This document shows positions 3,440-20,813 of a stretch of DNA of 32,156 nt, piece by piece. Each line of letters begins with the position of its first letter. The stretch's first letter is position 1. Origin of the DNA: Phycisphaerae bacterium (lineage in GTDB: Bacteria; Planctomycetota; Phycisphaerae; UBA1845; PWPN01). The stretch covers positions 1 through 32,156 of the forward strand of contig JAAYDF010000118.1 in assembly GCA_012729395.1 (NCBI GenBank). Reading direction: 5' to 3'. The position numbers were made by a program, and so were the translations under genes. The notes under the pieces were generated by a model. That model saw nothing but the letters and a program-made list of their open reading frames with translations, searched no databases and was not told the origin of the DNA.

Positions 3440-6079
3440 ATGCCGCGAGGCAGCGGACCTTTCCCTAGGCGGTGTATGAGATGCCGGTTCACGGCGGCGA
3501 CCCTCCGCGAGCGGTCGCTCAGTCACTTCTCGCTCGCGTTGGCCACGCTGCTATGCACCGCCGCTGTCAGTCCAGCCAATCAGCCGCCGGCGATCACCAC
3601 GCTGCCGGAGGTCAACACCACTCCCCTCGTGGCGGACAATGCCACCCCCTACACGGTCAGCATGACCGCGTCCGACCCGGATGGGTACAACGACCTGCGC
3701 TGCCTGCGAATTCTGTTCAATTACACCGAGTCAGGTGGTCAGACATCCACAGGCCGTGGGTACCTCGCTTGGGGCAAGACGGACGGCGACATCGCCCAGT
3801 ACGGCGGCAACTGGATCTTCGCCGACGCCACCGGCGGGGGCCGGTGGGCCTACATGACCGACAGTTGGGGGGGCACCGCCTACCTGACACCGCTGAACTG
3901 CACAACCACGGCCGGCGGGCTGGCCAGTGGAGACACCGGCTCGCGCACCGTGAACTTCACCTTCACCGTCAAGAGTGTGTGGGCGTTCTATCCGCTGACC
4001 AACGACGCCGACGCCTGGATCGCCGACTCCGCCGCCATCATCGGGTGGCGCGACGCGACCGCGGACTTCGACGTCGTGGCCGCGCCGTGCGGCATCATCT
4101 GTCAGCCCCCTCGACCGCCCATCCTCTCCAACCCAAGCGCCAATACACTGGATGTGTCAATCCACCCGGACGACTCGGTCGCCGACCTGTTCGCCCTGCG
4201 CGTCTGGCCAAGTGTCGGCGGCAAGAGGTACGTGCAGAGCGACGGCACGCTCGGGCTCATGCCACAATGGCGCAGCCGTAGTGCCTGGGGCACCCGGACC
4301 ATTCAAGGGCTGATGTGGTCGACGTCCTACGAGGTCTCGGCACGGGCCGCCCGGTTCACGGCCGGCTACTGCCCCTCGTCATGGAGCACTCACGCTGAGG
4401 CGGCGACATCCGATGCTCCACCCGTGGTGAACCACTCCGGCGGCACACCCTTCAGCCCCTGGGTTCGCGGGCAGAACCCCTACCGCTCGATTCCCGCTTC
4501 CGGCTACGCCACGGTGTGGTCCCTAGCCGCCGAAGCCTCCGGCCGCGGACTCGCCGGCGGACTCGATGCCGATACCTACGACTGGCGCAACATCCACAGC
4601 GGAGCCAACTGGGGCCTCACCGGCGGGTACTTCACCACCCTGGAGTTCCTCCAGCATGCTCGGGACTACTCGTCCGCACCACTGTTCACCGCCAATATGT
4701 TCGGCGGCGGATACCGCGATCCCGCCCAGGACGACGCGTTCGTGTGCCAGACCGACAACCCCGAGGGCTTGGCGGCGGATTGGGTCCGCTACGCCAACTT
4801 CATCGTGCGGAACTACCGGCAAGGCCAGGAGGGCAGCCTCAGCGGAGAAGACCTCCGGGTGTACAACTCCATCGTGGATTGGGGCGGCAAGGCCAAACTG
4901 CTCTCGCCGGCCGAGGAGGTCGTGCCCGCCATTCAGTATTGGGAGATCGGTAACGAGCCCGAACTGGGCGGCCTATCCGGCTTCCTCCTCGATCACTACC
5001 TCGGCCCCGCCGCTTATCGCGACCGCTACAAGTCCATCAGCCAGGCCATGCTGGCCGTCGATCCCACGCTCAAGATCGGCCCCTGCCTGATGACGCCAAC
5101 CGACCCGAACAGCGGCAGCGGGCAGTGGCTGGCCGCCCTGGCCGACGACGCCCAAGCCCCCATCGACTTCGTCGGCTATCACCCCTACTACTCCGCCATC
5201 AAGGCCAACTGGGATGACCCCGAGGGTATGACCACCGCCCTGCGCGAGTACAAGGCCTACCTCAAGACACGCAGCGACGGGATCCGGACGATCATGAGCC
5301 AGCACGGCCGGAGCGGTTATGACCTCATGGCCACCGAATGGAACCCACTCAGCTGGGACGCGACCGGCGCCCAGCAGCGCTCCATGGCCATGGCCCTCGG
5401 ACTGGCGGAGGGCTGTTTCACCTTCGCCGAGGAGGGCGTGCTGGCCGCCCATTTCTGGGAGCACCCGCAGAGCAAACTCGGAGCCCGGGATATGTTTGCA
5501 GGCCTGCGCGACCACATGGGCAACGTCCTGGTCACCAGCGGCGAGCAAATGGGCCTCGCGCCTGCCGATACCAACTTTCGCGTCTACGTCACACGCGACA
5601 GCACGCTGCCCAACACGATCATGATCTGGGGCCTCAACTTCAACAACAATCAACCCGTCGAGCTGACCATGGCTTTGAGCCCCTGCCGGCCGATCGGCGC
5701 GACGCTCAAACGCTACGGCAAGCCGGGCGGCAGCAGCCTGACCGATGGCACCGGCATGGTTTGGCAGACGCAGGATATCACTGCGGGTTTCGACACGGCC
5801 GCCTTCACATTAACCATGCCCAGCGCCGAGGCCGTCGTGCTCATTCTGGACATCGAGCCGACCGTGGCTCCAGACATGGATCGCGACGGCGACGTGGATC
5901 TCGACGACTTCGGCCTCTTCCAGGCCTGCCTCAGCGGCCCCAGCGTCATCCAGGATAAGCCCGCCTGCCGCGACGCCCGGCTCGACGGTGATCGCGACGT
6001 CGATCACTACGACTTGGCCGACTTCCTCGCCTGCTTCAGCGGCGCCGACATACCAGCGAACCTCGATTGCGCCCCTTGA
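3440..6079 (+). CDS. Secreted clan GH-A-like glycoside hydrolase with C-terminal dockerin-like repeats
   Basis: This protein of about 879 residues has an N-terminal signal peptide (hydrophobic core near residues 28-42), a beta-rich region, an FN3-like region near 215-320 and then a (beta/alpha)8-type catalytic domain. EIGNEPE holds the likely acid/base Glu506 and ATEWN the likely nucleophile Glu633, an arrangement seen in clan GH-A families such as GH39 and GH51; the family is not settled. A beta domain follows. Two dockerin-like calcium loops start at residues 812 (DMDRDGDVDLDDFG) and about 845 (DGDRDVDHYDLADF), a common tail of planctomycete secreted proteins. The ATG at 3440 follows a purine-rich AAGAAAGG; a TTG at 3401 and an ATG at 3476 are alternatives. 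The TGA stop lies inside sequence homologous to a decayed ppk2 gene, so the original end of the coding frame may have been different. Confidence 0.78.
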   Translation: MPRGSGPFPRRCMRCRFTAATLRERSLSHFSLALATLLCTAAVSPANQPPAITTLPEVNTTPLVADNATPYTVSMTASDPDGYNDLRCLRILFNYTESGGQTSTGRGYLAWGKTDGDIAQYGGNWIFADATGGGRWAYMTDSWGGTAYLTPLNCTTTAGGLASGDTGSRTVNFTFTVKSVWAFYPLTNDADAWIADSAAIIGWRDATADFDVVAAPCGIICQPPRPPILSNPSANTLDVSIHPDDSVADLFALRVWPSVGGKRYVQSDGTLGLMPQWRSRSAWGTRTIQGLMWSTSYEVSARAARFTAGYCPSSWSTHAEAATSDAPPVVNHSGGTPFSPWVRGQNPYRSIPASGYATVWSLAAEASGRGLAGGLDADTYDWRNIHSGANWGLTGGYFTTLEFLQHARDYSSAPLFTANMFGGGYRDPAQDDAFVCQTDNPEGLAADWVRYANFIVRNYRQGQEGSLSGEDLRVYNSIVDWGGKAKLLSPAEEVVPAIQYWEIGNEPELGGLSGFLLDHYLGPAAYRDRYKSISQAMLAVDPTLKIGPCLMTPTDPNSGSGQWLAALADDAQAPIDFVGYHPYYSAIKANWDDPEGMTTALREYKAYLKTRSDGIRTIMSQHGRSGYDLMATEWNPLSWDATGAQQRSMAMALGLAEGCFTFAEEGVLAAHFWEHPQSKLGARDMFAGLRDHMGNVLVTSGEQMGLAPADTNFRVYVTRDSTLPNTIMIWGLNFNNNQPVELTMALSPCRPIGATLKRYGKPGGSSLTDGTGMVWQTQDITAGFDTAAFTLTMPSAEAVVLILDIEPTVAPDMDRDGDVDLDDFGLFQACLSGPSVIQDKPACRDARLDGDRDVDHYDLADFLACFSGADIPANLDCAP

Positions 6080-6240
6080 AACTCGCCACACGCACACCCT
6101 GCGGATTAACCGCCTGGAACACGTGCCGGATCGTGCCGTCCTTGCCCCGCGGCCTTCTTGCCGTCGAAGGTCTCCTTGCCATCCGGATCCCAGTCGCTCA
6201 GATCCACGCACTTGCCGGGCTTGACGCGATAACGGTCCAT
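6075..6240 (-). pseudogene. Remnant of a class III polyphosphate kinase 2 gene (ppk2)
   Basis: Reading leftward from an ATG at 6240, with GGAGG 5 bases upstream, the sequence encodes MDRYRVKPGKCVDLSDWDPD and then KETFDGKKAA, which matches the N terminus of class III PPK2 (polyphosphate-dependent nucleotide phosphotransferase). In the next frame it continues at once as GKDGTIRHVFQAVNPQG and VRVASFK, the family's Walker A end and following strand. The joint at about 6147 skips roughly three dozen codons found between these blocks in intact proteins and shifts the frame. The homology stops near 6075, at the glycosidase gene. The retained start opens a 44-codon frame ending at 6106. The catalytic core (Walker B, lid) is absent, so no kinase can be made. 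Family motifs are recalled knowledge; the deletion size is an estimate. Confidence 0.82.
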
Positions 6241-6310: not shown

Positions 6311-9163
6311 TCACAGCGCCTGGGCGAGCAGCTCCGCCATGTGCAGCGGCTTGGCGGTCGTCAGATGAGTGATCTGATGTCGGCAGCTCGTACCCGAGGC
6401 CACCAGTTCCGTCCCCGGCTCCAGTGCGTTGATCTTGTCGACCAGCGGCTGGGCGACCTGTCGCGACAATTCGTACTTGCTCTTGAGCATCCCGAACGCC
6501 CCAGCCATGCCGCAACAAGCGGTTTCAAGCAGTCGCACTTGGGCTCCGGGAATCTTGCCGGCAAGTCGCGGCAGCAGGTTCACATCGCCCAGGGCCTTGG
6601 TGTGGCAGTGCCCGTGGATCGCGACGCGCAACCCGTCCTTGCGGAAGGGGATCGCCGCGGGGTCGCGCTCCAACAGACCGAAGATGAAATCCTCGAAGGA
6701 CACGCAGCGCGGGGCCACCCGCTCGGCATTGGGTATGTGCAGGTTGAGGTAGTCGTCGATGAACATCGAGTGGCACGACGGCTCAAGAAAGATGATCGGC
6801 TCATCGCCGCCCTGCTCCATAAACATGCTCACGTTGTGGCGACCCAGCCGGTCCACCATATCGAGCACGCCCCGGCTCATCGCAGGCCGACCGCAGCACT
6901 TGCGACCCTCCGCCAGCGCGATCTCGAAACCCGCCGCCTCAAGAACCTTCACCGCCGCCTGCCCAATGTGCGGCTCGTTGTAGCGCACCCAGGTGTCGTC
7001 CCAGAGGATCACACGCCCCCTCGTGGACCGGGTGGACTTGCTCACGGAGCTTCCCGACCCGCCCTTGCGGTGGCGGGCAAACCATCGGTCGAACCGCTGC
7101 CGCGCGTAAGCCGGCATGGGCCGATCCGGAGTAAAACCCAGAACCAGAGCCATCAACTGACGCGCAAGCGACAAACGCATCACCGCGTTGACCATCGGAG
7201 CCAACAGCCCCGCGTTCATTCGGCCCAGCAGGTCGGCGTTCGCGATAAGGCGATCCAGCAGAGGAACGCCCGACCGCCGATGCCGCGCGTGATTCAGATC
7301 CGCCTTGAGCTGGGCAATATCCACGTTCGACGGACATTCCGTCTTGCACGCCTTGCAGGACAAGCAGTTGTCCAGGGCGGTGCCTAGCTCTTTGGAGGCC
7401 AAGGGATCGCCGGTGCCCAGTCGGCCCTCCAGGGTGGCCCGGATGGTATTGGCCCGGCCGCGAGGAGACATGATCTCCTCCTGCGTCACGATGAACGTCG
7501 GGCACATGACCGGCAGATCCTTACGGCACCCGCCGCACCCGTTGCATTGTTCGAGATTGGCGACGAAGGAGCCGTCGCGTTCGACGTAGCCTAGGACGGG
7601 CAGGAAGGGCAACTCGATACGACGCCCCGGCCCGGTCCGCAGGCAGCGGTCGATCCGATAGCGGCCGTCGTCGATGAGCTTGCCGGGGTTGAGCACCTGC
7701 CGCGGGTCGAAGAGGGCTTTGATGTGCCGCGTCACCGCCTGCAACTGCTCGCCGAGCTGCTCCGCCAGATACTCCGTCCGGGCAATGCCCACGCCGTGCT
7801 CCGACGCCAGCGAGCCCTTGAACTGCTTGCAGAGGGCCGAGACTTCGTCGGTGATCTGCCGGTACTGGGCCACGCCCTCGGCCGTGTGCAGGTCCACCTT
7901 GGGCCGGACGTGCAGTTCGCCCGAGGCCGCGTGGCCGTAGAACGAACCCTGCACACCAACCCGCTTGAACAGATCCATCAGCCCATTGACGTACTCCGGC
8001 AACTGGTGCGGACGGACGCAGACATCCTCAATGCCGGGCGTCGGCTTCGCCGAGCCCTTGCAGCCGGTCAGCAGCGATAACCCCTGCTTGCGAACCTGCC
8101 AAACCAGCTCCTGCTCACGAGGGTCGCGGCAAATCAGCCGCCGCAGGCCAACCTGTCGCCGTCCGATCGCCGCCAGCTTCTCGTCGACATCGTCGTAGAA
8201 CTCGACGATCAAGATCGACTCGCACGGCTCCTCGTCCAGCCGCATCAGCGAGCGCGCCGCCTTGAACGCCAACTGCCCTTTGGTCTGGTCAAACAGCAGT
8301 CGGTCGATGTGCTCGATGGCCACCGGCTTGAGATCCAGGAACTCGACCGTCGCTTGCATCGCCTCGGGGATCGAGGCAAAGAAGAAAATGGCCAGCCCCT
8401 TCTCCCGGGGCACAGGCACGATGTCCAGCTCCGCGGAGATGATCCCCGCCAGCGTGCCCTCGCTGCCGCCGATGAGTTTGCTCAAATCGCCCGGCTCGCG
8501 AAGGTAGTCGTCCAAGCCGTAGCCCGGCCAGCGCTTCGGCATGTCATCGGGCAGGCGTTCACGGATAAGGTCGACATGCGGCCCGATCAGCCGGTCCGCC
8601 GCCGCCCGGATATCCGCCAAGCCGTCACAACCCCGACCAACGGTGGCCACCGTCCCGTCCGCCAGCACCACGTCCACACTCGCGACGTGATCCACCGTCG
8701 TCCCGTACCGCGGCGTCCGGGCTCCCGATGAGTTGCTCGCAATCATGCCGCCCAGCGTAGCCCGCGAGCTGGTCGCCACGTCCGGCCCAAATGTCAAACC
8801 GTGCGGCTTGAGAACTGCGTTGAGCTGATCGAGGACCACGCCCGGACCAACGCGAACCGTCCGGGCTTCCAGGTTCAAGTCGGTCACTTGCCGGGTGTAC
8901 CGGGCAAAGTCGACCACCAGCCCGTCGCCCACCGCCCCGCCCGCCAGGCCGGTCCCCGCCCCTCGCGGAATAACCGACAAGTCGGCGTCCGCGGCGGCAC
9001 GCAGCAGCGTCGACGCTTCGTCCGCGTTTCGCGGAAATGCCACCCCGACCGGCCGAATCTGATAAATCGAGGCGTCGGTCGAGTACAAGGCCCGCGTGAG
9101 ATCGTCAAATCGCAACTCGCAGGCTGTCGCCCGCGCCAAAGACGCTTTCAGTGTTGTACTCAT
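6311..9163 (-). CDS. FAD-linked oxidase / iron-sulfur fusion protein (GlcD-GlcF or YdiJ-like 2-hydroxyacid dehydrogenase)
   Basis: This 950-residue protein fuses a flavin subunit to an iron-sulfur subunit and would oxidise a 2-hydroxyacid such as D-lactate, glycolate or 2-hydroxyglutarate, passing electrons to the respiratory chain at the membrane. The PCMH-type FAD domain comes first, with RGAGTGLAGG at 67-76, followed by the FAD-oxidase C-terminal domain to about 460. Two 4Fe-4S clusters follow: CNGCGGC starting at C540 with a later CP, and CLSCKACKTECP starting at C600. Two CCG-domain motifs, CCGRPA at 756 and CCGMAG at 883, complete the GlcF part. Length matches YdiJ-type fusions. The ATG at 9163 is chosen over 9190 because a perfect TATAAT sits between them. 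No ribosome binding site is visible. The substrate cannot be fixed from sequence alone. Confidence 0.9.
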   Translation of the reverse strand: MSTTLKASLARATACELRFDDLTRALYSTDASIYQIRPVGVAFPRNADEASTLLRAAADADLSVIPRGAGTGLAGGAVGDGLVVDFARYTRQVTDLNLEARTVRVGPGVVLDQLNAVLKPHGLTFGPDVATSSRATLGGMIASNSSGARTPRYGTTVDHVASVDVVLADGTVATVGRGCDGLADIRAAADRLIGPHVDLIRERLPDDMPKRWPGYGLDDYLREPGDLSKLIGGSEGTLAGIISAELDIVPVPREKGLAIFFFASIPEAMQATVEFLDLKPVAIEHIDRLLFDQTKGQLAFKAARSLMRLDEEPCESILIVEFYDDVDEKLAAIGRRQVGLRRLICRDPREQELVWQVRKQGLSLLTGCKGSAKPTPGIEDVCVRPHQLPEYVNGLMDLFKRVGVQGSFYGHAASGELHVRPKVDLHTAEGVAQYRQITDEVSALCKQFKGSLASEHGVGIARTEYLAEQLGEQLQAVTRHIKALFDPRQVLNPGKLIDDGRYRIDRCLRTGPGRRIELPFLPVLGYVERDGSFVANLEQCNGCGGCRKDLPVMCPTFIVTQEEIMSPRGRANTIRATLEGRLGTGDPLASKELGTALDNCLSCKACKTECPSNVDIAQLKADLNHARHRRSGVPLLDRLIANADLLGRMNAGLLAPMVNAVMRLSLARQLMALVLGFTPDRPMPAYARQRFDRWFARHRKGGSGSSVSKSTRSTRGRVILWDDTWVRYNEPHIGQAAVKVLEAAGFEIALAEGRKCCGRPAMSRGVLDMVDRLGRHNVSMFMEQGGDEPIIFLEPSCHSMFIDDYLNLHIPNAERVAPRCVSFEDFIFGLLERDPAAIPFRKDGLRVAIHGHCHTKALGDVNLLPRLAGKIPGAQVRLLETACCGMAGAFGMLKSKYELSRQVAQPLVDKINALEPGTELVASGTSCRHQITHLTTAKPLHMAELLAQAL

Positions 9164-16986: not shown

Positions 16987-18582
16987 ATGAAGGCCGAGCC
17001 ACGCGACACGTCAACCACCAGCTCAAGCCCCGAGCGAAAGCCCGAGGCCACCCCCACCGCCGTCATCGACATCGGAACCAACGCCATCCGCATGGCCGTC
17101 GCCGAGATCGACGACACCGGCAACGTCCGCGTACTCGATAACCTCGCCCAGGCCGTCGACCTCGGACGAGATACCTTCACCCGTGGCATCATCCGCAAGT
17201 CAACCATCGAAGAATGCGCCCGAATCCTCCGCAGCTACCGCCAGTTCCTGCAGGAATACCAGATCACCCGCGAAGACCGCATCCGCGTCGTCGCAACCAG
17301 CGCCGTCCGCGAGGCGGAGAACAGCTTGGCCTTCGTGGACCGCATCTTCATCGCCACCGGCCTGCAGGTCGAGCCCCTCGACGAGGCCGAGGTCAACCGC
17401 GTAACCTACCTGTCCGTGCAGCCCCTCCTGGCGACCGAACCGAGGCTGACCGACGCCCGTACCATGGTCTGCGAGGTCGGCGGCGGAAGTACCGAACTGC
17501 TGGTCGTGCAAAAAGAAAACGTGCTCTTCTCCAAAACCTACCGCCTTGGCTCCATCCGCCTGCGAGAAACACTCAACGCCTACCGGGCACCAACCGTCAA
17601 ACTCCGCCATCTCATGGAAAGCCAGATCACCCTCACCATCGAGGAGATCATCGAGCACGTCTCACGCGACGGACCCATCGAGATCCTCGCCTTGGGCGGC
17701 GACGCCCGCTTCGCCGCTTCCGAGCTGGTACCCAACTGGACCCCCGGACAACTGGCCCGCGTCCCCGTCGAAGCACTCAGCCGACTCGCCGACCAGGTCC
17801 TCAGCATGACCACCGGCAAACTCGTCCAGCGATACCACCTCACGCCCTCCGACGCCGAGACCCTCGGGCCCGCACTCCTCGCCATGGTCGAACTGACAAA
17901 AGCGTTCACAACCCAGCACCTCTGGGTCGCCAACGTCAACATGCGCGACGGGCTGCTCATGCAGATGGCCGCCAAAGGACAACGCGCCGAGCACTTCGAC
18001 AACCAGATCATCCGGTCCGCCATGGACCTGGCCCGTAAGTTCGATTGCGACGAAGCCCACGCACGCCATGTGGCCGAACTGTCCCGCACCCTGTTTCGTG
18101 CACTGCAAAACGAACACCATCTCGAGCCACGACACGAGCTGTTCCTCTACCTCGCCGCCCTGCTGCACGAGTCGGGGATGTACATCAGCAATGCCAGCCA
18201 TCACAAGCACTCCATGTACCTCATCGCCAATAGTGAAATTTTCGGCCTGCGGAAGGAGGACCTGCGACTCATGGCTCTGGTGGCCCGGTACTACCGCCGG
18301 GCGGCCCCCAAACCCAACCATCCGGGCTACGCCACCCTCGACCGAAAACAACGCGTCGCCGTCACCAAAATGGCCGCCCTCCTGAGAATCGCCGACGCCC
18401 TCGATTGCTCCCGAAGCCAACGCGTCGGAGAAATCGAGTGCCTCCGCGAACACGGCAGACTGGTCATCCTCGTCCCCGGTGTCGACGACCTGTCTCTCGA
18501 GCAGATCGCCGTCAGTCAGAAAGGAACCCTATTCGAGGATACCTTCGGTATGCCCGTCCTCCTGCGAACCACAGGACGCTAG
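16987..18582 (+). CDS. ppx: Exopolyphosphatase (Ppx/GppA family) with C-terminal HD domain
   Basis: This 531-residue protein would degrade inorganic polyphosphate from its ends, and may also act on pppGpp. The actin-like ATPase fold begins with AVIDIGTNAIRMAV near residue 25, where the family usually has DxGSNS; here Thr-Asn replaces Ser-Asn. ATSAVREAEN and the phosphate loop EVGGGSTEL (about 162-170) are present. A C-terminal HD-type helical domain includes His358 and LLHESG near 393-398. Length is that of the long Ppx form. The start lies 3 bases after the ROK kinase stop. ppk1 follows 101 bases downstream, so synthesis and breakdown of polyphosphate are encoded together. The stop codon TAG overlaps the first copy of a repeat, which may have cut or extended the C terminus. 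Confidence 0.9.
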   Translation: MKAEPRDTSTTSSSPERKPEATPTAVIDIGTNAIRMAVAEIDDTGNVRVLDNLAQAVDLGRDTFTRGIIRKSTIEECARILRSYRQFLQEYQITREDRIRVVATSAVREAENSLAFVDRIFIATGLQVEPLDEAEVNRVTYLSVQPLLATEPRLTDARTMVCEVGGGSTELLVVQKENVLFSKTYRLGSIRLRETLNAYRAPTVKLRHLMESQITLTIEEIIEHVSRDGPIEILALGGDARFAASELVPNWTPGQLARVPVEALSRLADQVLSMTTGKLVQRYHLTPSDAETLGPALLAMVELTKAFTTQHLWVANVNMRDGLLMQMAAKGQRAEHFDNQIIRSAMDLARKFDCDEAHARHVAELSRTLFRALQNEHHLEPRHELFLYLAALLHESGMYISNASHHKHSMYLIANSEIFGLRKEDLRLMALVARYYRRAAPKPNHPGYATLDRKQRVAVTKMAALLRIADALDCSRSQRVGEIECLREHGRLVILVPGVDDLSLEQIAVSQKGTLFEDTFGMPVLLRTTGR

Positions 18583-18683: not shown

Positions 18684-20813
18684 ATGCATGACCTGAAAAC
18701 CGACGAAATATCCCGTTACATCAACCGCGAGCTGAGCTGGCTGGAGTTCAACCATCGGGTGCTCGAGCAGGCACAGGACCCCGATGTTCCACTGCTCGAA
18801 CGACTCAAGTTCCTGGCCATCACCAGCTCAAACCTTGACGAGTTCTTCATGGTCCGGGTGGGCGGGCTGAAAATGCTCGCCGACAGCGGCAGTAGCAAAC
18901 GCGATCCCAACGGCCTCTCCGCCATCGAACAACTTCAAGCCATCCATGCCCGATTCACCCAAATGCTCGCCGACCAATACGCCTGCTACATGCAGGCACT
19001 CGAACCCGCTCTGGCCGCAGCCGGAGTGCGGCGTCGCCGACCTGGCGAACTCACCGAACGCCAAACCCAGGTCATCGAGCAGGTCTTCGACAACGAGATC
19101 CACGCCATCCTCACCCCCATGGCCGTCACCTGCCCCGCCGACTTCCCCCTGCTCCCCGGCCGAGCGCTCAACCTCTGCGTACGCCTCGATCCCGCCCCCG
19201 CCGAACCCGACCGCCCCCGCTTCGCGGTCATCCCCATCGGCCGGACCGTTTCCCGGTTCATCACCCTGCCCTCCGACGGCGGCTACGATTACATGCTCCT
19301 CGAAGACGTCATCAGCGTGTTCATCCAACGGTTCTTCCCCGGTGAACGCATCCAAGAGTGCACCCCCTTCCGCATCACCCGCAACGCCGACATGAGCGTA
19401 CGCGAAGACCTCGCCTTTGATCTGCTCGAGGAAATGGAACAGGTGCTCGACGCCAGACGACACAGCGCCTGCGTCCGGCTCGAACTCGCCGATACCGCAA
19501 GCGATCATACCCGATCCTTCCTGCAGGAAGTTCTCGATGTGGACGGCATGAGACTCTGCCGCGTGCCAGGCCCCCTTGACCTGTCCGCATTCATGCGCCT
19601 GACCGATCTCAAAGGATTCGGCTCCCTGCGCTACGAGGACTGGCCAGCCCAACCGTCGCCCGAAATCAACACCAAGGCCAGCATGTTCGAGGCCATCGCC
19701 CAGCAGGACCTCCTGCTCTGCCACCCGTTCGAGAGCTTCGATCCGGTGGTCCGACTCATCGACGAAGCCGCCGAAGACCCCGACGTCCTCGCCATCAAAC
19801 AGATCCTCTACCGAACCAGCCGCAACAGCCCCATCGTCGCAGCCCTCAAACGAGCCGCCCAACGAGGCAAACACGTGACCGCCCTCGTCGAACTCAAGGC
19901 ACGCTTCGACGAGGCCCGCAACATCGAGTGGGCCCGCAACCTCGAACAAGCCGACGTTCAGGTCATCTACGGCGTCAAAGGCCTCAAAACCCACGCCAAA
20001 CTCTGCCTCATCGTCCGCCGCGAGCCGCATGGCATCCAACGATACGTACACTTCGGCACCGGCAACTACAACGAAATCACCGCCCGGCAATACACCGACG
20101 TCTCCTACATGACCTGCAACGACGAACTCGCCGCCGACGCCAACAGCTTCCTCTGCGCGATCACCGGCTACTCACAACCCCAACGCTTCCGCAGAATCGA
20201 GGCCGCCCCCATCGGCTTACGCGAGACCCTGCTCGAAATGATCCAGCTCGAAATCGCCTGCAAACGACAGGGCCAGAAAGCCCACATCATGGCCAAAATG
20301 AACTCGCTCGCCGACCCGCGAATCATCGACGCCCTCTACGAGGCCTCACGGGCCGGAGTCAAAATCCAACTCAACATCCGCGGAACATGCTGCCTTCGGC
20401 CCGGAATCCCCCGACTCAGCAAAAACATCTCCGTCGTCAGCATCGTCGACCGCTACCTCGAACACAGTCGGATCTTCTACTTCTGCCAGGGCGGCGACGA
20501 ACGCGTGTTCATCTCCAGCGCCGACTGGATGCCGCGAAACCTCGACCGCCGCGTCGAACTGCTCGTCCCCGTCGACGACCCAGCCTGCCGCGATCGACTC
20601 ATCGCCATCCTCCAGGTATGCCTGCGAGATAACGTCAACGGCTGGCGCCTCGGCCCCGACGGCACCTACGAACGACTCCGCCCCGAGCAGGACAAGCCCG
20701 CGATACACTCGCAGGAGATCCTCTATCACGCGGCAATGGAAGTCGCGGCCCAGGGCCAACAGTCCCCCCGAACCATGTTCGAGCCGCACCGAGCGCCCGA
20801 GGCCGAAACGTAA
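18684..20813 (+). CDS. ppk1: Polyphosphate kinase 1
   Basis: This 709-residue enzyme makes inorganic polyphosphate from ATP reversibly, as an oligomer at the membrane face. The N domain starts with YINRELSWLEFNHRVLEQA, a hallmark of the family, and continues with ITSSNLDEFFMVRVGG. LKTHAK contains His437, the expected phospho-accepting histidine, preceded by ELKARFDEARNIEWA. YVHFGTGNYNE and the second conserved histidine, His594 in YLEHSRIFYF, follow. Length fits PPK1. The ATG at 18684 has no strong ribosome binding site and lies 14 bases after a perfect inverted repeat that separates it from ppx. A PPK2-type gene in this window is only a remnant, so PPK1 is the working kinase encoded here. 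Confidence 0.96.
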   Translation: MHDLKTDEISRYINRELSWLEFNHRVLEQAQDPDVPLLERLKFLAITSSNLDEFFMVRVGGLKMLADSGSSKRDPNGLSAIEQLQAIHARFTQMLADQYACYMQALEPALAAAGVRRRRPGELTERQTQVIEQVFDNEIHAILTPMAVTCPADFPLLPGRALNLCVRLDPAPAEPDRPRFAVIPIGRTVSRFITLPSDGGYDYMLLEDVISVFIQRFFPGERIQECTPFRITRNADMSVREDLAFDLLEEMEQVLDARRHSACVRLELADTASDHTRSFLQEVLDVDGMRLCRVPGPLDLSAFMRLTDLKGFGSLRYEDWPAQPSPEINTKASMFEAIAQQDLLLCHPFESFDPVVRLIDEAAEDPDVLAIKQILYRTSRNSPIVAALKRAAQRGKHVTALVELKARFDEARNIEWARNLEQADVQVIYGVKGLKTHAKLCLIVRREPHGIQRYVHFGTGNYNEITARQYTDVSYMTCNDELAADANSFLCAITGYSQPQRFRRIEAAPIGLRETLLEMIQLEIACKRQGQKAHIMAKMNSLADPRIIDALYEASRAGVKIQLNIRGTCCLRPGIPRLSKNISVVSIVDRYLEHSRIFYFCQGGDERVFISSADWMPRNLDRRVELLVPVDDPACRDRLIAILQVCLRDNVNGWRLGPDGTYERLRPEQDKPAIHSQEILYHAAMEVAAQGQQSPRTMFEPHRAPEAET

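Follow-up and report, generated by a model that had tools for sequence, protein, structure and literature searches.

A probable ppk2 pseudogene with joints at GGGGC pentamers in a Phycisphaerae bacterium that retains ppx and ppk1

The window, by which we mean the whole stretch of 32,156 nucleotides that was analysed, carries on its minus strand a short sequence that opens like a gene for polyphosphate kinase 2 (PPK2) and then breaks off. This raises the question of whether the sequence is a dead ppk2, how it came apart, and what its loss leaves of polyphosphate metabolism in this lineage. We consider it very likely (roughly 0.9) that it is the pseudogene remnant of a PPK2 gene, probably of class III, which decayed through deletions at GGGGC while PPK1 and PPX were kept and the PPK2 route was lost. 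The features of the locus, and the closest intact gene that we found, are as follows:

3440-6079, plus strand: convergent gene for a large protein with a dockerin-like C-terminal repeat; stop codon TGA at 6077-6079
6071-6075, minus strand: joint 2, GGGGC, corresponding to CDS 276-280 of the intact gene (by alignment; homology known on the ppk2 side only)
6071-6143, minus strand: block 2, PPK2 codons 70-93 plus 1 base, from KDGTIRHVF to ASFKG; 63 of 73 bases identical to the intact gene
6144-6148, minus strand: joint 1, GGGGC, at which 110 bp of the intact gene (CDS 98-207) are absent by alignment
6144-6240, minus strand: block 1, PPK2 codons 1-32 plus 1 base; 84 of 97 bases identical to the intact gene
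6106-6240, minus strand: residual 44-codon frame, MDRYRVKPGKC...VPGG, with its ATG at 6240; in full MDRYRVKPGKCVDLSDWDPDGKETFDGKKAAGQGRHDPARVPGG, followed by a stop codon
6245-6251, minus strand: Shine-Dalgarno sequence AGGAGGT, 5 bases from the ATG counting from AGGAGG
6311-9163, minus strand: upstream gene, an intact fusion of an FAD oxidase with an Fe-S/CCG protein (GlcD-GlcF type), whose stop lies 70 bp before the ATG of the scar
Genome G004, contig C157, 10753-11556 (locus L022/L051): closest intact ppk2, 267 codons, from another genus of the same family of Planctomycetota

When the window's own genome was searched with the protein of an intact relative, 6240-6142 matched PPK2 residues 1-33 with 79% identity (E 7e-12), and 6152-6066 matched residues 67-95 with 76% identity (E 1.9e-7). 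At the DNA level, the match to the intact G004 gene extends over 113 bp at 87% identity (E 6e-33) for the first region and over 74 bp at 86% (E 1e-18) for the second, far beyond chance. The minus strand from 6256 to 6071 carries two consecutive pieces of a PPK2 gene in their original order and orientation. Block 2 (translation KDGTIRHVFQAVNPQGVRVASFKG) matched TIGR03709 (PPK2_rel_1) by itself (E 4.5e-8), and the joined blocks matched both PF03976 (E 1.6e-6) and TIGR03709 (E 2.1e-11), which places the pseudogene in the PPK2 family by the homology of its surviving blocks. Block 1 (translation MDRYRVKPGKCVDLSDWDPDGKETFDGKKA) had no match to a family model on its own and is identified through the agreement of 25 of 30 residues with the G004 homologue; in block 2 the agreement is 21 of 24. 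The start context is also the same in the two genes, since the Shine-Dalgarno leader of the scar, CTCGCAGGAGGTT, is found upstream of the intact ppk2 of G004 as well. The two differ in that the G004 gene is intact and has other neighbours.

The scar is about 170 bases long and keeps about 56 of the 267 codons of the intact homologue. The original prediction had described a good ribosome binding site, an ATG and the PPK2 N terminus, followed by a jump of about three dozen codons and one frame and by an abrupt end after VRVASFK, and all of this proved correct as far as it could be tested. The missing 110 bp, a size that is relative to a gene of another genus because no genome of the same genus was among those found, amount to 36 codons plus 2 bases and so explain why the blocks lie in different frames; GKDGTIRHVFQAVNPQGVRVASFKG is readable on the minus strand in a frame other than that of the 44-codon frame. 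Joint 2 leads into the 3′ end of the convergent gene, and the 3′ part of ppk2 (about 524 bp in the intact gene, everything after CDS base 280) is absent. A working PPK2 is therefore not encoded here: the frame shifts after codon 32, Walker A is cut down to its GKDG end, Walker B and the lid are absent, and nothing remains past codon 93.

The joints themselves indicate how the gene may have come apart. The intact gene contains GGGGC at exactly three positions (CDS 93, 203 and 276), and these are all three joints of the scar: the internal deletion runs between those at 93 and 203, and the gene breaks off at the one at 276. The two DNA matches (query 7-119 and 115-188) overlap by exactly 5 bp, GGGGC; were deletions of 50-300 bp placed at random in the intact gene, only 0.8% of them would have joint homology of at least 5 bases. 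Short direct repeats are thus likely to have mediated the deletions. According to this mechanism, slipped replication or end joining at the 5-base direct repeats would have made the deletions in a ppk2 that was probably no longer under selection; the internal 110 bp would have been lost between two GGGGC pentamers, shifting the frame, and so would the remainder of the gene, from the third GGGGC to the convergent neighbour's TGA. As 110 bases are missing, we rejected an isolated base-call error as an explanation.

The same joints could be produced if a population with an intact ppk2 had been misrepresented through faulty assembly, a mixture of strains or amplification, with the contig misjoined at short repeats. 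Chimeric reads tend to form at such repeats, both joints lie at GGGGC, and the assembly is fragmented (370 contigs) with 3.4% contamination. We nevertheless regard such an artefact as very improbable, since an assembly that is 99.55% complete has no copy of the missing sequence elsewhere, overlaps of 5 bases are below the usual assembly length, two false joints 73 bp apart would be needed, and an error in a G run could not by itself delete 110 bp.

Decay through deletions at GGGGC also appears to have been recent. The substitutions relative to the intact gene fall on the first, second and third codon positions in the numbers 6, 2 and 15 (p = 0.003), and this third-position excess fits a sequence that was coding until recently. 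No new stop codon was found in either block in its own frame. Some of the differences belong to the G004 branch, so the pattern indicates only that much of the divergence arose under selection at the protein level. Together, these data suggest that the loss of ppk2 was probably recent.

The second break brings ppk2 up against the convergent gene, whose TGA sits inside ten bases, TTCAAGGGGC (6071-6080, minus strand), that it has in common with ppk2. The last codons of the convergent gene are GCC CCT TGA; the final six bases, CCTTGA, read TCAAGG on the opposite strand, as in ppk2. Its stop may thus be native and common to both sequences, or it may have been supplied by the dead ppk2. The end of the encoded protein (DCAP and the stop) coincides with the end of many orthologues and paralogues, and truncation of this neighbour (3440-6079) by the second deletion was rejected, as no truncation is visible. 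The dockerin-like repeat pair at 5879-6076 gave 53 matches across its own genome, and many of these lie where large open frames end, which suggests that these repeats are a common C-terminal tag of a family of large proteins.

On the other side of the scar, orthologues of the GlcD-GlcF fusion are present in most of the family with 62-72% identity; in the G004 genome (91% complete) only a paralogue with 39% identity is present. The 13 genomes of the family and 80 genome-contig loci, a set with no other genome of the same genus, yielded no intact ppk2 alongside the fusion; an ancestral arrangement in which ppk2 lay next to the fusion is what we infer. The neighbourhood of the scar is not conserved in relatives, and the homology begins just upstream of the Shine-Dalgarno sequence, as would be seen if an already broken piece of ppk2, never functional here, had been acquired between the two genes horizontally or by rearrangement. 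The scar is also closest to the G004 gene (85% over 54 residues) despite the distance of that genome by RecA and deformylase. Against such an acquisition, the intact start and ribosome binding site and the common strand with the upstream gene point to decay in place, as do joints that fall on repeats within the gene, and the same data would result if a whole gene had been transferred and had then lost parts by deletion. We therefore give it very little credence.

Decay in place is compatible with an earlier transfer. After the G004 gene, the next relatives of the scar are those of G002 and G011, at 65% over the 54 residues compared. By RecA, used as the marker of distance because RpoB is missing in G004, that genome lies farthest away among five relatives (69% identity), and its partial deformylase is nearly the most distant (54%). 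The scar is thus closer to the G004 gene than these two proteins predict, a hint, from few residues, of possible horizontal exchange within the family before the loss. A broader picture, in which ppk2 genes of Planctomycetota move horizontally and are shed at G-rich pentamers independently of PPK1, and in which this scar is caught soon after the loss with its neighbour possibly borrowing a stop codon, seems to us rather unlikely. If it were true, the route from polyphosphate to nucleotides would come and go independently of PPK1.

Retention of the 44-codon frame as a small protein with a separate function, such as a regulator of polyphosphate metabolism, is extremely unlikely: it has a good Shine-Dalgarno sequence, an ATG and 30 conserved codons (codons 1-30 are the PPK2 N terminus), but its 14 C-terminal codons are frameshifted sequence, it includes no complete part of an active site, and it has no second example among the 13 family genomes, the window's own included. 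Judging from its sequence, the frame is more probably a by-product, which may be translated into a peptide that would be non-functional since the scar is without Walker B, the lid and most of Walker A.

The consequences of the loss depend on what else the genome encodes. The assembly measures 5.74 Mb in 370 contigs, with 99.55% completeness and 3.4% contamination, and no other PPK2 copy was found in it: there were two credible matches, both in the scar, the next having an E value of 0.28, and the PF03976 profile had no match in the genome. The window carries the following pair of genes:

16987-18582, plus strand: ppx, an intact-looking gene of the Ppx/GppA family by sequence analysis
18684-20813, plus strand: ppk1, apparently intact; the four PPK1 domains are all present, and so are the two conserved histidines, H437 and H456

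The histidines are those expected from E. coli PPK1. The claims that an apparently intact ppx-ppk1 pair lies in the window and that the lineage seems to have lost PPK2 while keeping PPK1 are supported by these findings, and the absence of any other PPK2 together with the retained pair makes the loss well supported. The lineage could presumably still make polyphosphate through PPK1 and degrade it through PPX, and would be unable to charge nucleotides through any PPK2. Absence of PPK2 is common and its distribution in the group is patchy, with a PPK2 of any kind in 21 of the 61 relatives compared and in 130 of 298 genomes of the class. PPK1, too, is patchy here: it was found in only three of the 13 genomes of the family, counting the window's own, and none was found in the 91% complete assembly of G004. 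A DNA-level search of the 13 family genomes revealed no other ppk2 scars in PPK2-free relatives. Polyphosphate biology thus gains one more lineage with PPK1 and PPX and without any PPK2.

The ppk2 scar is a case of ordinary gene decay, and only the legibility of its joints is unusual: some 170 bases record the loss cleanly enough to show where the joints lie, which repeats are involved and that the event is probably young. It is also a warning for annotation, as either a working PPK2 or a real 44-residue protein called at this position would be wrong.

As for the class of the lost enzyme, class III PPK2 proteins are marked by a glutamate after Walker B (PMC8776046). The intact G004 homologue reads FNRSHYEDVL in this region, and its best solved relative is the class III PPK2 of Meiothermus ruber (PDB 5LC9/5O6K; E 2e-106), from which the scar differs in retaining only about 56 of 267 codons. 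The label of class III given in the original prediction is therefore plausible for the intact homologue and cannot be read from the scar, in which the class-specific glutamate region is deleted; by way of that homologue, the scar is probably the remnant of a single-domain class III PPK2 (polyphosphate:NMP/NDP phosphotransferase). In the pseudogenes of Salmonella, the most frequent kind of single inactivating change is a short deletion, and 91.5% of the cases (346 of 378) have one inactivating change of whatever kind (PMC2916853). The ppk2 remnant resembles them in being made by deletion, frame-shifted and probably young, and differs from them in having two deletions, both at one pentamer.
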